Below, piece after piece: positions 29,175 through 32,257 of a stretch of DNA of 64,000 nt (its first letter is position 1; each line of letters opens with the position of its first letter). A program made the translations under genes and the position numbers. The stretch is from Kangiellaceae bacterium. Lineage in GTDB: Bacteria; Pseudomonadota; Gammaproteobacteria; Enterobacterales; Kangiellaceae. The stretch lies in NCBI GenBank assembly GCA_026196875.1, contig JAPHTP010000009.1:1-64000 (forward strand), given 5' to 3'. The notes under the pieces were generated by a model. The model worked only from the letters and a program-made list of their open reading frames with translations. It did not search any database and was not told where the DNA came from.

Positions 29175-30095
29175 GTGAAACCAATTAAAGTGAAATCAAA
29201 CTACCCTATAGATATTATCGGCGCTGGCGCAATTGGTCATTTATGGGCAGGCTTTTTGATGAACCAAAACCATAAGATTAATTTGTTAACTAGCAAACAG
29301 CGTAAGCCTCAGCTGATCACAATTAAATCACCGCTTCTCAGTAAACAGGTAAAGATCCAGTATGTTGATATGGACAACTGGCGACCGTCAACAGTTATCA
29401 TAATCTGTGTTAAAGCCTTTCAACTGGAAACAGTGTGCCAACAACTGGTGAAAAAAGGACTAAAAGATGCCACCATAATTCTCATGATGAACGGTATGGG
29501 GCTAGTTGAGTGTGTGCAGCGAAACCTACCTGAATGCAAAGTTCTACATGCTTACCTCACACATGGAGCCTACTTAAGTGAGGATACTCTCTATCACACC
29601 GGAACCGGTATCACTCAACTGGGAAACTTACATTCTGACTTCCAGTTTGAGGAATTTGAACCTCTAATTGAAACTCTTAACCAAGCATTACCAAAAGTGA
29701 GTTGGAATGCGGATCACCAATCGGCAATGCATTTGAAATTGATTATCAACTCAATCATTAATCCACTGACGGCTATGCATAAACTTAAAAATGGCCAATT
29801 ACTAAATAAAAGTGGAGAGTTAGTAAAAATTGCGGAGTTATTGCTCAATGAACTTGAGCCATTGATACCTTCTCTTGTTCCATCTTTGTCAAAAGAAGCC
29901 ATCAAAAATGAAATAGAAAATGTGGCAATGGGAACCGCTGAAAACCGTTCTTCGATGTTGCAAGATGTATTGAAGAATAAGCCAACTGAGATAGATCAGA
30001 TAAATGGCTACTTGGTCTGTTTGGCTAAAAAACAATCAGTTGATTTAGCACAACATATCAAATTAATTAATCAAATCAAAACCTTACAGAATTAA
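29175..30095 (+). CDS. panE: 2-dehydropantoate 2-reductase-like protein
   Basis: The 306-residue Rossmann-fold protein starts with GTG. The NADPH-binding motif is GAGAIG (16-21). Other family blocks are VIIICVKAFQ, ILMMNGMG, the catalytic Lys region HLKLIINSIINPLTAM and the substrate-side ENRSSMLQDVLKNKPTEIDQINGYLV, all in PanE order. The reaction is reduction of ketopantoate to pantoate in the pantothenate pathway. The family has paralogs of unknown substrate, so the symbol is probable and not certain. Confidence 0.82.
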   Translation: MKPIKVKSNYPIDIIGAGAIGHLWAGFLMNQNHKINLLTSKQRKPQLITIKSPLLSKQVKIQYVDMDNWRPSTVIIICVKAFQLETVCQQLVKKGLKDATIILMMNGMGLVECVQRNLPECKVLHAYLTHGAYLSEDTLYHTGTGITQLGNLHSDFQFEEFEPLIETLNQALPKVSWNADHQSAMHLKLIINSIINPLTAMHKLKNGQLLNKSGELVKIAELLLNELEPLIPSLVPSLSKEAIKNEIENVAMGTAENRSSMLQDVLKNKPTEIDQINGYLVCLAKKQSVDLAQHIKLINQIKTLQN

Positions 30096-30173
30096 TTCGC
30101 ATAAGCCACCTGAACACCATCACATTTCAAGCGAGATTCTCAGTAGAATAGCTATTCTTCTGATATTCTTAGT

Positions 30174-30462
30174 ATACCCGTGATACCTCAAAATGCCTGT
30201 ATCAGCGTGGTAGGAAGTAATCATATTTAAGACATGGAAACGCCGGACTGGTCACTCTAATTCAAGTTTCCATAACGAAAAAGATGATCGCTTATTACCT
30301 CCCCGTGCGGGTGCTCCACCGAGAAGCTTGCACCGCGTTGCAACGCTTGGCGAGGGCAGCCCCGAGAGTGAAACGAAAATTTTGGGTATTCCCTGCGAAT
30401 TGCGCCCGATTTAAGCTTCTCGGCGCTATTTAGCAAAATGCATTTTGAGGTACCACGGATAT
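30174..30462. mobile_element. MITE-like element bounded by 24-bp imperfect inverted repeats
   Basis: The left end (30173-30196) and the reverse complement of the right end (30440-30463) match over about 24 bp with two differences; the 19-bp cores CCGTGATACCTCAAAATGC (30178-30196) and its inverted partner (30440-30458) differ at one base. Between them lie nested inverted repeats: ATGGAAAC/GTTTCCAT (30234/30266), CCGAGAAGCTT/AAGCTTCTCGG (30319/30413) and palindrome GCGTTGCAACGC (30335). The middle is clearly more GC-rich than its surroundings. No transposase is encoded. This suggests a non-autonomous miniature transposon or a dispersed structured repeat; other copies in the genome would decide. 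Confidence 0.6.
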
Positions 30463-30508
30463 AAATCAACAATAATCATAAATATCTTAATTAGCGAGTT
30501 AAGTTGAA

Positions 30509-32257
30509 ATGAATCCATTAAAAACTTCTTTATTGACAGTGGTAGTCATAGGCACAATTTTTACCGCGCTCTTAGTGTCAAATTATAGTAGTCGTCCGGC
30601 CACTCCGGAAAACGACCAGTCCGAAGCCCAAGTCAGCGCACAATTATTAGCAGAACAAATTGACGCAAAAGTAGCGGCATTGCAAAATTCACTTAATTCA
30701 CTGTCCTACAACACTTTCTGGCAATCGTCTCCAGTAGCCGAATGGTCTTACTGGCTTGAATCTCAATCCAATTTGTTTCAGGCAGCGGGATTATCTCTTG
30801 TTGGTGTACACTCTAAATCAAATGATGTTTTATACTTTGAGAAACCTTCCAGGGCAGGCCAACTTGGAGAGCTCAAACAACCACTCGAGAGGCTATACAA
30901 TCAGCAAAAACCTGTCAGCTTGTTAAAACTGTTTAGAGATAAACCAGCCATAATTTTACTCACACCGATTAAGAACATCGACCAGCAATCAATCGGAACT
31001 TTGGTAGGAATAAAATATTTAGATATTGTCGAACTAAAACGCTATCACTATCTTACCAAAGTACCGGTAGCCCTTACTAAAAATGGATTAATTCAAGCGG
31101 TAAGTATTGAGTCTTCTCCGAGTTTAACCGATTATGATTTAGTCGAAATTAATTGGCCTAAATCAATCAATTCTGCTTTATGGAAACTCGTTTTACTGGT
31201 GAATCCGCCACCCGCTATTTCAGGAATGTACTTGTTTCTAGCAATTGGCGTTGCGCTTACCTTACTGTTAGCGTTCGTTGTTTATAAGCAGCTCAGTTCT
31301 AGTCAAAAGAATATTCTGCTGCTAGACGATACACTTGATGTGCAGCTACCTATTCCCGAACAAATTAATCGCCTCAACACATTGCAAAATTTAACTCAAG
31401 ACGTATCTTTCGCGGAGCTCATACAATCGATACGTTCTCGAATTGAGCAACTTGTCCAGCAGAAAAAATCTCTGTCAATTGAATTAAGAAAGTCTCAAGA
31501 GTCCGAAAAGACTTTACAAGCAACGGCTTCTTCATTAACCAATGAAAGAGACTCAGCCGTCGCTGCGCCGCGTGTAAAATCTGAATTCTTATCTCGCATG
31601 GGCGATGAAATTACAACTCCGATGAAATCCGTTGTCAGTATGCTGAAATTGCTTTCTGAATATGAATTTGAAAGCGAACCAAAACAATTGCTGAATATTG
31701 CTAAACGTTCAACCCGGACCCTAGTTGACAACTTGAATAATATTCTTGATTTCTCAAAACTCGACGCCCAAATGTTAAAACTGAAACCATCGACCTTTAG
31801 TGTTAGAGAATTAGTCGATGGCCTATCCGCAGAATTATCACACTATGCAAATGAAAAAGGATTATCACTACAAGCCAGTTGTGACCCGAACATTCCACCT
31901 CAAGTTAAAGCCGATCTTTCCAGAATCAGACAAATTCTAAGAAACTTGCTGGGAAATGCTGTTCGATTTACTAAACAAGGGGAAGTGAGTTTATTTGCCA
32001 ATGTGTTCATTGAAGGTGAACAAAGTTATCTCAAATTTGCAGTAAAAGATTCCGGTGTTGGCATCCCTGCCGAGGCTCAGAAGGGACTATTTGATTCCCT
32101 AGAACAACAGACCAAACTGACCAATAGCAGCTTTGCCGGTAGATTAAGATTAATTGTGTCGAAACATCTAGCTGAATTGATGGGCGGTGAAATAGGTGTA
32201 ATTAGCGAGCCTGGTAAAGGTTCACAGTTCTGGTTTACCATAAAGCTCGAAGATTAG
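30509..32257 (+). CDS. Degenerate sensor histidine kinase (pseudokinase)
   Basis: The 582-residue inner-membrane protein has TM1 (about 8-25), a periplasmic sensor region, TM2 (about 240-260), a coiled coil (about 300-350), a HisKA-like dimerisation region (354-425) and a HATPase domain (455-580). The H box, usually SHEIRTPM, reads GDEITTPM: the phospho-accepting His is Asp366 (codon 31604-31606). The G2 box, normally GTGLGLAI, reads AGRLRLIV (543-550). The N box (NLLGNAVRFT) and G1 (DSGVGIP) are kept. It therefore probably cannot autophosphorylate but may still bind nucleotide or regulate another kinase. The reading frame is intact over its whole length, so this is not simple decay. A lone receiver gene is convergent downstream. 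Confidence 0.85.
   Translation: MNPLKTSLLTVVVIGTIFTALLVSNYSSRPATPENDQSEAQVSAQLLAEQIDAKVAALQNSLNSLSYNTFWQSSPVAEWSYWLESQSNLFQAAGLSLVGVHSKSNDVLYFEKPSRAGQLGELKQPLERLYNQQKPVSLLKLFRDKPAIILLTPIKNIDQQSIGTLVGIKYLDIVELKRYHYLTKVPVALTKNGLIQAVSIESSPSLTDYDLVEINWPKSINSALWKLVLLVNPPPAISGMYLFLAIGVALTLLLAFVVYKQLSSSQKNILLLDDTLDVQLPIPEQINRLNTLQNLTQDVSFAELIQSIRSRIEQLVQQKKSLSIELRKSQESEKTLQATASSLTNERDSAVAAPRVKSEFLSRMGDEITTPMKSVVSMLKLLSEYEFESEPKQLLNIAKRSTRTLVDNLNNILDFSKLDAQMLKLKPSTFSVRELVDGLSAELSHYANEKGLSLQASCDPNIPPQVKADLSRIRQILRNLLGNAVRFTKQGEVSLFANVFIEGEQSYLKFAVKDSGVGIPAEAQKGLFDSLEQQTKLTNSSFAGRLRLIVSKHLAELMGGEIGVISEPGKGSQFWFTIKLED

Follow-up and report, generated by a model that had tools for sequence, protein, structure and literature searches.

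Among the small repeats described in bacteria, those closest to the element considered here are the ERIC/IRU/RU-1 repeats (MITEEc1) and MITEPlu5 of Photorhabdus: like it, they have ends of the form TATACCC...GGGTATA, duplicate a TA, occupy intergenic places and fold strongly. For ERIC, we confirmed these ends in 5373 of 5426 E. coli genomes. ERIC is 123-127 bp long and forms one long hairpin, whereas the element described here measures about 266 bp and carries two side hairpins, and the two interiors show no detectable likeness. The insides of such non-autonomous transposable elements (MITEs) are usually regarded as unimportant. A further point of comparison is REPIN, an inverted pair of REP hairpins, which likewise has two homologous hairpins in inverted orientation; unlike REPIN, the present element has a TA duplication and a long terminal stem. 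According to the Photorhabdus study (PMC6267812), the partner of ERIC and MITEPlu5 is the CCC type of IS630 element, a partnership that we also propose here. These insertion sequences (ISPlu3, ISPlu8 and ISPlu19 in PMC6267812) have TATACCC ends, a TA at both ends and a transposase of the family discussed below. They encode that transposase between two differing ends, whereas the MITE studied here has no transposase and two ends alike; as the IS is nearly all coding, we read the core of the MITE as no remnant of it. The RUP element of pneumococcus, with its IS630-Spn1, and the Correia/NEMIS elements are also small and TA-duplicating, with IS630-like ends in the case of RUP; compared by description alone, from PMC2229807, they differ in size and are described with no twin-hairpin core.

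Within the window (the whole analysed stretch of 64,000 nucleotides, from contig JAPHTP010000009.1 of the Kangiellaceae assembly GCA_026196875.1) we find a decayed copy of such an element at 30173-30463, with its sense strand being the minus strand. Including both TA copies it spans 291 bp, delimited by a match to our covariance model R1, by its inverted repeats and by its absence from five orthologous gaps. It lies between genes for a PanE/ApbA reductase and a histidine kinase, both on the plus strand, and is hence antisense to both neighbors. The preliminary description had reported terminal inverted repeats, and these are present, extending one base further at each end than was given there: the 24-bp arms at 30173-30196 and 30440-30463, with 243 nt between them, are complementary at 22 of 24 positions. 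When 30091-30510 was shuffled 200 times in two-base blocks, the top-scoring pair of 24-nt arms reached 14-18 such positions in 199 cases and 20 in one, and never 22. Several internal features claimed in that description were likewise recovered, namely an 11-bp perfect pair at 30319-30329 and 30413-30423 with a spacing of 83 nt, a 12-bp palindrome (GCGTTGCAACGC) at 30335-30346, and a GC-richer middle (0.57 at 30291-30390, as against 0.33 in the 200 bp preceding the element and 0.41 window-wide). Its verdict that no credible protein is encoded also holds: the 71-aa open reading frame at 30257-30472 on the minus strand belongs to no Pfam family, and there is no transposase gene inside the element. 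When folded as RNA, both strands of the window copy are more stable than 100 of 100 shuffles (z -5.5 and -5.6), and the minus strand folded as DNA gives a z of -4.4, with none of 200 shuffles being as good. R1 recognizes the copy on the minus strand with 198.8 bits (E 2.6e-50 in the whole genome), a score that is not independent because the window copy is one of the 22 training sequences of the model. Immediately before the element, at 30134-30169, there are two 18-nt arms that are 83% complementary with no gap between them. This stretch includes CTTCTGATATTCTTA, a sequence that also occurs in the panE-kinase gap of the related genome G002 and recurs slightly changed in those of G004 and G001; the stretch could be a promoter or terminator displaced from the kinase gene by the insertion.

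Comparison with the six other genomes of the genus reveals that the element jumped into the panE-kinase gap. The gap is free of the element in all five relatives that were read, three of which align through the insertion site, and in G002 a single TA stands where the window has TA-element-TA, with the two copies of the target-site duplication at 30173-30174 and 30462-30463. The G003 and G005 loci are too diverged for alignment at the site itself, and that of G006 was scanned with R1 only; the R1 scan of the six orthologous loci detected no element. We also searched 11 genomes of another genus (g7, probably Moritella) with the joined flanks of six insertions from genome G151, and read the junctions of four of these insertions in 19 loci. 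At three of the sites, including one TA improves the alignment over omitting it in all 13 unoccupied loci. The fourth (site 1) is represented by six loci with indels; in two, part of an element end is present, and the best of them aligns slightly better without a TA. The window element is an inserted, decaying copy, which supports the MITE that the preliminary description had offered as one of two readings; neither outcome named there as refuting was seen, given related copies with conserved ends and an empty site in the five relatives read. The insertion duplicated a TA, the element is gene-free, and transposase-encoding elements with similar ends are found in related genomes (see below).

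Related copies are detected in the same genome and genus by BLASTN, independently of the covariance model, and they have conserved ends. The window's own genome has a 180-bp copy and weaker places; the R1 scan there lists, besides the window copy, three weaker places, one of only 28.4 bits. Related genomes hold many copies. A single clean copy used as a query matches 8 of 40 genomes of the family (positives include G001, G007, G008, G011 and G012); G012 alone has eight near-identical copies. In 295 genomes of the order, sampled from a larger group, R1 finds matches in 105 genomes and 32 of 99 genera, with the copy numbers being lower bounds, since at most six candidates per genome were scored under strict filters. 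The element had previously been proposed to be a repeat of this lineage; its dispersed nature stands, but the family extends across the whole order and its core reaches beyond it. The named genomes with the P3 motif of its core (43 stretches) are Aliikangiella coralliicola M105 (G001), Kangiellaceae bacterium OB12 (G004), three Moritella and one Methylophaga MAG. Most full copies measure 262-269 bp. Among 75 aligned copies, taken from the best-scoring places so as to cover families, L207 is the sole exception to TATAC-type ends that vary little. Of 47 copies, not one is located within an open reading frame of 120 aa or more. Shortened derivatives also exist, in which one hairpin or the greater part of the core is missing. 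Viral contigs and phages yielded no match to the element; plasmids yielded none when the window copy or L073 served as the single blast query, and one partial match with L085. Some individual loci are of separate interest. One 3.6-Mb genome (G094) has 75 TATACCC-type ends falling into several letter groups, which suggests several waves of elements. In G151, two 55-bp elements (C1:2074215-2074269 and 2883695-2883749) consist of two facing ends and nothing else. In Aliikangiella coralliicola, a molybdenum-cofactor riboswitch (RF01055, 73.9 bits; L005 790-990) is situated near a copy.

The most distinctive feature of the family is its interior. The consensus fold comprises a terminal stem, P1, and two side hairpins, P2 and P3, which form a twin-hairpin core of about 200 bases. 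In the window copy the terminal inverted repeats make up the outer 24 bp of P1, which reaches inward to about 30203 on the left and about 30433 on the right. Counting alignment columns of the consensus structure places P2 (from alignment A2) at 30311-30431 and P3 at 30204-30304, both on the minus strand. The inner palindromes noticed earlier are parts of these two conserved hairpins, with P2 holding both the 11-bp pair and the 12-bp palindrome. The conserved apical motif of P3 is at 30251-30266 (minus strand), and the tip of P2 has 25 extra bases (30358-30382) that are absent from the other 21 copies of A2. In A2, a structure-blind alignment of 22 copies from Kangiellaceae, changes on both sides are seen in 59 of 93 pairs and 95.2% of cells are paired, with a covariation score of 0.453 as against 0.177 in shuffled alignments (none of 500 reaching it) and no more than 0.098 with the structure slid; one four-pair helix is without any both-side change. 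In A5, which is likewise structure-blind but spans 42 copies across families, 74 of the 83 pairs show both-side changes and 92.9% of cells are paired, with a score of 0.665 as against 0.191 +/- 0.007 shuffled (0 of 500) and at most 0.126 slid; in both cases the structure was derived from the very alignment tested. Another alignment, A4 (75 copies), was aligned to the model and is thus biased toward its structure. Four intact copies folded as RNA have z-scores between -12.0 and -16.9. Furthermore, in 46 copies (one per genome) the unpaired columns of the core are more conserved than the paired ones (0.624 versus 0.525, p 0.003). The arms of P1 vary between lineages and are nearly perfect inside each copy.

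Sequence models show the two hairpins to be homologues that are inverted relative to each other. After splitting, which lost 4 of 75 copies, a model of reversed P3 matches 57 of 71 P2 hairpins and a P2 model matches 27 of 71 reversed P3 hairpins, with one of 71 shuffles matching in each case; the controls with P3 in forward orientation gave 4 of 71 and 6 of 71 matches, one of them at 22.2 bits. Searches of Rfam 15 with the window copy and with copies from other genomes and plasmids returned no match at any family's own threshold; below threshold, two microRNA families gave matches that overlap plasmid copies. In the literature searched we found no description of the long form or of the core, although Zo 2011, which by its title concerns the reductive divergence of ERIC among Gammaproteobacteria (cited in PMC10969869), may describe a longer form. 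The alternative offered in the preliminary description, that of a dispersed structured RNA or repeat, stands as regards a dispersed and structurally conserved repeat, with the conserved two-hairpin fold and its paired changes emerging from the covariance folding that it had proposed; a function as RNA is only putative.

The core appears to be modular, being found by sequence comparison on two other, unrelated kinds of ends besides TATACCC. One copy, L207 (from genome G052), has a related core with wholly different ends (AGTGTACTGCG...), in which 30 of 31 outer positions are paired; this third kind of ends is known from this one copy, which has no TA beside it. Searches with its core recovered plasmid copies in Azotobacter, P. 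aeruginosa and Halomonas, the ends of which read TA-GGGTCTGTTGACG or TA-GGGCCTGTTGACG. In an alignment fitted to the model, identity between copies with different kinds of ends is 0.28-0.41 in P1 and 0.39-0.54 in the core, and core identity inside the TATACCC kind itself falls as low as 0.41. Used on sequence alone, a P2 model built from TATACCC copies scores 48.0, 38.8, 29.7 and 21.5 bits on the copies with other ends, while 2 of 80 shuffles match, the best at 3.2 bits. The corresponding P3 model is weak (13.4, 7.7, 3.4 and -0.1 bits, with no shuffle matching), such that membership beyond the TATACCC copies is carried at this level by P2; splitting P2 from P3 for this comparison lost 4 of 74 copies. 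Ends similar to those of the plasmid copies flank an 856-bp IS5-family element on both sides in an Aeromonas plasmid (L308), and an IS5 gene of Paracoccus terminates at such an end: this link to IS5 comes from two of three records examined, out of 11 found. In an Azotobacter plasmid, a copy with the second kind of ends is located beside a gene annotated as an IS630 family transposase (L305 292-551 and 594-851).

With regard to the TATACCC ends, genome G007 of the family encodes an IS630-family transposase (NF033545, 250 bits against a cut-off of 100; PF13358) adjoining an end, TATACCCGTCCCACATCAAGGTG, which over 23 bases shows 3 differences to the MITE ends in the same genome; a second end of this IS was looked for and not found. 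Relatives of the transposase, many of them broken, are present in 24 of the 295 genomes at E 1e-20 or better. Of 30 transposase loci, 7 (from six genomes) have TATAC(C/T)C ends that face each other at a distance of 1087-1120 bp, with the two ends of one IS agreeing at just 14-19 of 26 bases. The IS of G071 is 1101 bp long and present in four copies with 0-1 differences and differing flanks, and in G042 an IS end is identical, apart from one N, to the ends of 157-bp MITEs. In plasmids, the transposase is found in 249 records, by name mostly from Salmonella, Vibrio and Klebsiella, at identities below 60% in 243; an exact-motif search of three such relatives located the left end in two and the right end in none. 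The distributions of IS and MITE do not coincide throughout: G302 and G064 have the IS and no listed R1 match, and G071 has it along with one weak R1 match. Conversely, no PF13358 match was obtained in the window's genome, nor in G012 despite its recent burst, and no transposase of the G007 type in G000; the mobilizer in the window's genome and in G012 must have been lost or be a different one. Two other candidates were discarded. A presumptive autonomous 3.75-kb element in G151 and G199, with two facing ends of equal letters, has ordinary genes between the ends, which are two old copies. The PF13358 genes of G151 and G143 are not between listed facing ends; one G143 gene is near an element end, with its sister copies being away from ends. 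In G007 the IS630 gene (L232 1039-2109) is followed by a piece of an IS110-type transposase (2267-2923).

Taken together, we interpret the window feature, with a probability of roughly 0.85, as a degenerate copy of a MITE with a folded core and IS630-type mobilization. An IS630-family transposase acting in trans would have bound the two ends and inserted the element at a TA; elsewhere, IS5-type transposases may have moved the core. The window copy would since have become stranded and decayed, as no such transposase is found in this genome. The link to IS630 ends is not new in kind, it having already been published that ERIC-like elements of Photorhabdus have ends in common with CCC-type IS630 elements (PMC6267812). 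That some other transposase moves the element, the likeness of the ends being old or accidental, seems to us quite improbable: the end likeness extends past the seven terminal bases, the same pairing of ends is on record in that study, and the TA duplication fits IS630. The burst in G012 without a PF13358 match would nevertheless be in its favor, as would a Y1 (IS200-like) transposase gene beside a fragment of the same IS in G008 (L233 1291-2262). A TA duplication, however, misfits Y1 enzymes. It is also unlikely that we are dealing with an ordinary ERIC element that is merely longer. The ends do resemble that of E. coli ERIC, sharing a median of 18 and a maximum of 21 out of 24 bases; without the terminal seven, 14 of 17 agree, a value reached by 1 of 2000 shuffles. 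TA duplication and intergenic places are likewise as given for ERIC in PMC2759123. Nonetheless, the sizes differ (127 bp versus about 266), an E. coli blast search with one 268-bp copy (L076) returned nothing, and the P2 and P3 sequence models have no match in the ERIC interior; we accordingly dropped the idea that the interior derives from ERIC.

The other alternatives concern the core, which we infer, less firmly than the IS630 step, to be itself under selection, as pairing persists while the sequence diverges, paired columns vary more than unpaired ones, and a related core is joined to two further, unrelated types of end. Conceivably, the paired changes could have arisen without selection, by template switching that copies one arm of a palindrome onto the other so that the arms drift while staying paired. 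We regard this as a minority possibility: it would account for arms that differ by lineage and are nearly perfect within a copy, and for the lack of a strand preference in P1, the outermost and longest stem; conserved unpaired columns, a near-constant length and the strand bias of P2 are unexpected from copying alone, as is the occurrence of a related core with three different types of end. Copying may still have played a part. The strand bias bears in turn on whether the element is primarily a structured RNA, which would act on neighboring mRNAs or as a small RNA, with P2 and P3, transcribed from one strand, as its functional hairpins and mobility being secondary, an account that we consider rather doubtful. 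A G-T pair is an A-C mismatch on the opposite strand, and hence their ratio can tell the strand. Counted as distinct family-by-position events on the sense strand, G-T to A-C is 51:19 in P2 (p 1.7e-4), 19:28 in the outer stem of P3 (p 0.24) and 27:26 in P1; cell counts (102:31, 34:66 and 78:107 in P2, P3 and P1) exaggerate the bias. In 73 of 75 copies, two columns of P3 hold G-T, and for the tip of P3 the count is 38 G-T to 1 A-C. When read as inverted homologues, both hairpins lean toward the same sense, a reading that the G-T columns and sense-leaning tip of P3 do not fit. A case for one-strand RNA selection from the first forward fold was dropped once restricted to pairs found on both strands, for which 22 copies show no consistent bias; the larger set afterwards gave the P2 excess, with the outer stem of P3 leaning the other way. 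Along with the P2 excess and the P3 columns and tip, the strong covariation and the RNA folding of intact copies speak for the RNA account, as does the effect of Yersinia ERIC on mRNA stability according to its orientation (PMC2229807 and PMC10969869). Conversely, the outer stem of P3 leans to the other strand, P1 is even, and 47 copies placed by crude ORF calls show no orientation bias toward neighboring genes (19 sense versus 18 antisense). The single promoter-like site near the element is no more than shuffles yield, no Rfam family is matched at threshold, and the window copy is antisense to both neighbors.

The unexpected part of this MITE is thus its unusually well-conserved folded interior, and the interest lies there and in its apparent reuse rather than in the decayed window copy. 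The family supplies candidate pairs of transposase and element, with an intact IS in four near-identical copies and recently moved elements. Moreover, the conserved interior makes the strong folding of small repeats such as ERIC a testable question. Tentatively, and with less than even confidence, we suggest that the twin-hairpin core might be an independent selfish module, which acquired IS630-type TATACCC ends, IS5-type GGGTCTGTTGACG ends (in Azotobacter, Pseudomonas and Halomonas) and a third kind, and was kept for its fold, with each hairpin possibly being recognized in single-stranded form via conserved loops (CAAGGC, the tip and YAACGC) by a host or transposition factor. If so, unrelated transposition systems would have in common a part for mobility or persistence that can be used again and again.
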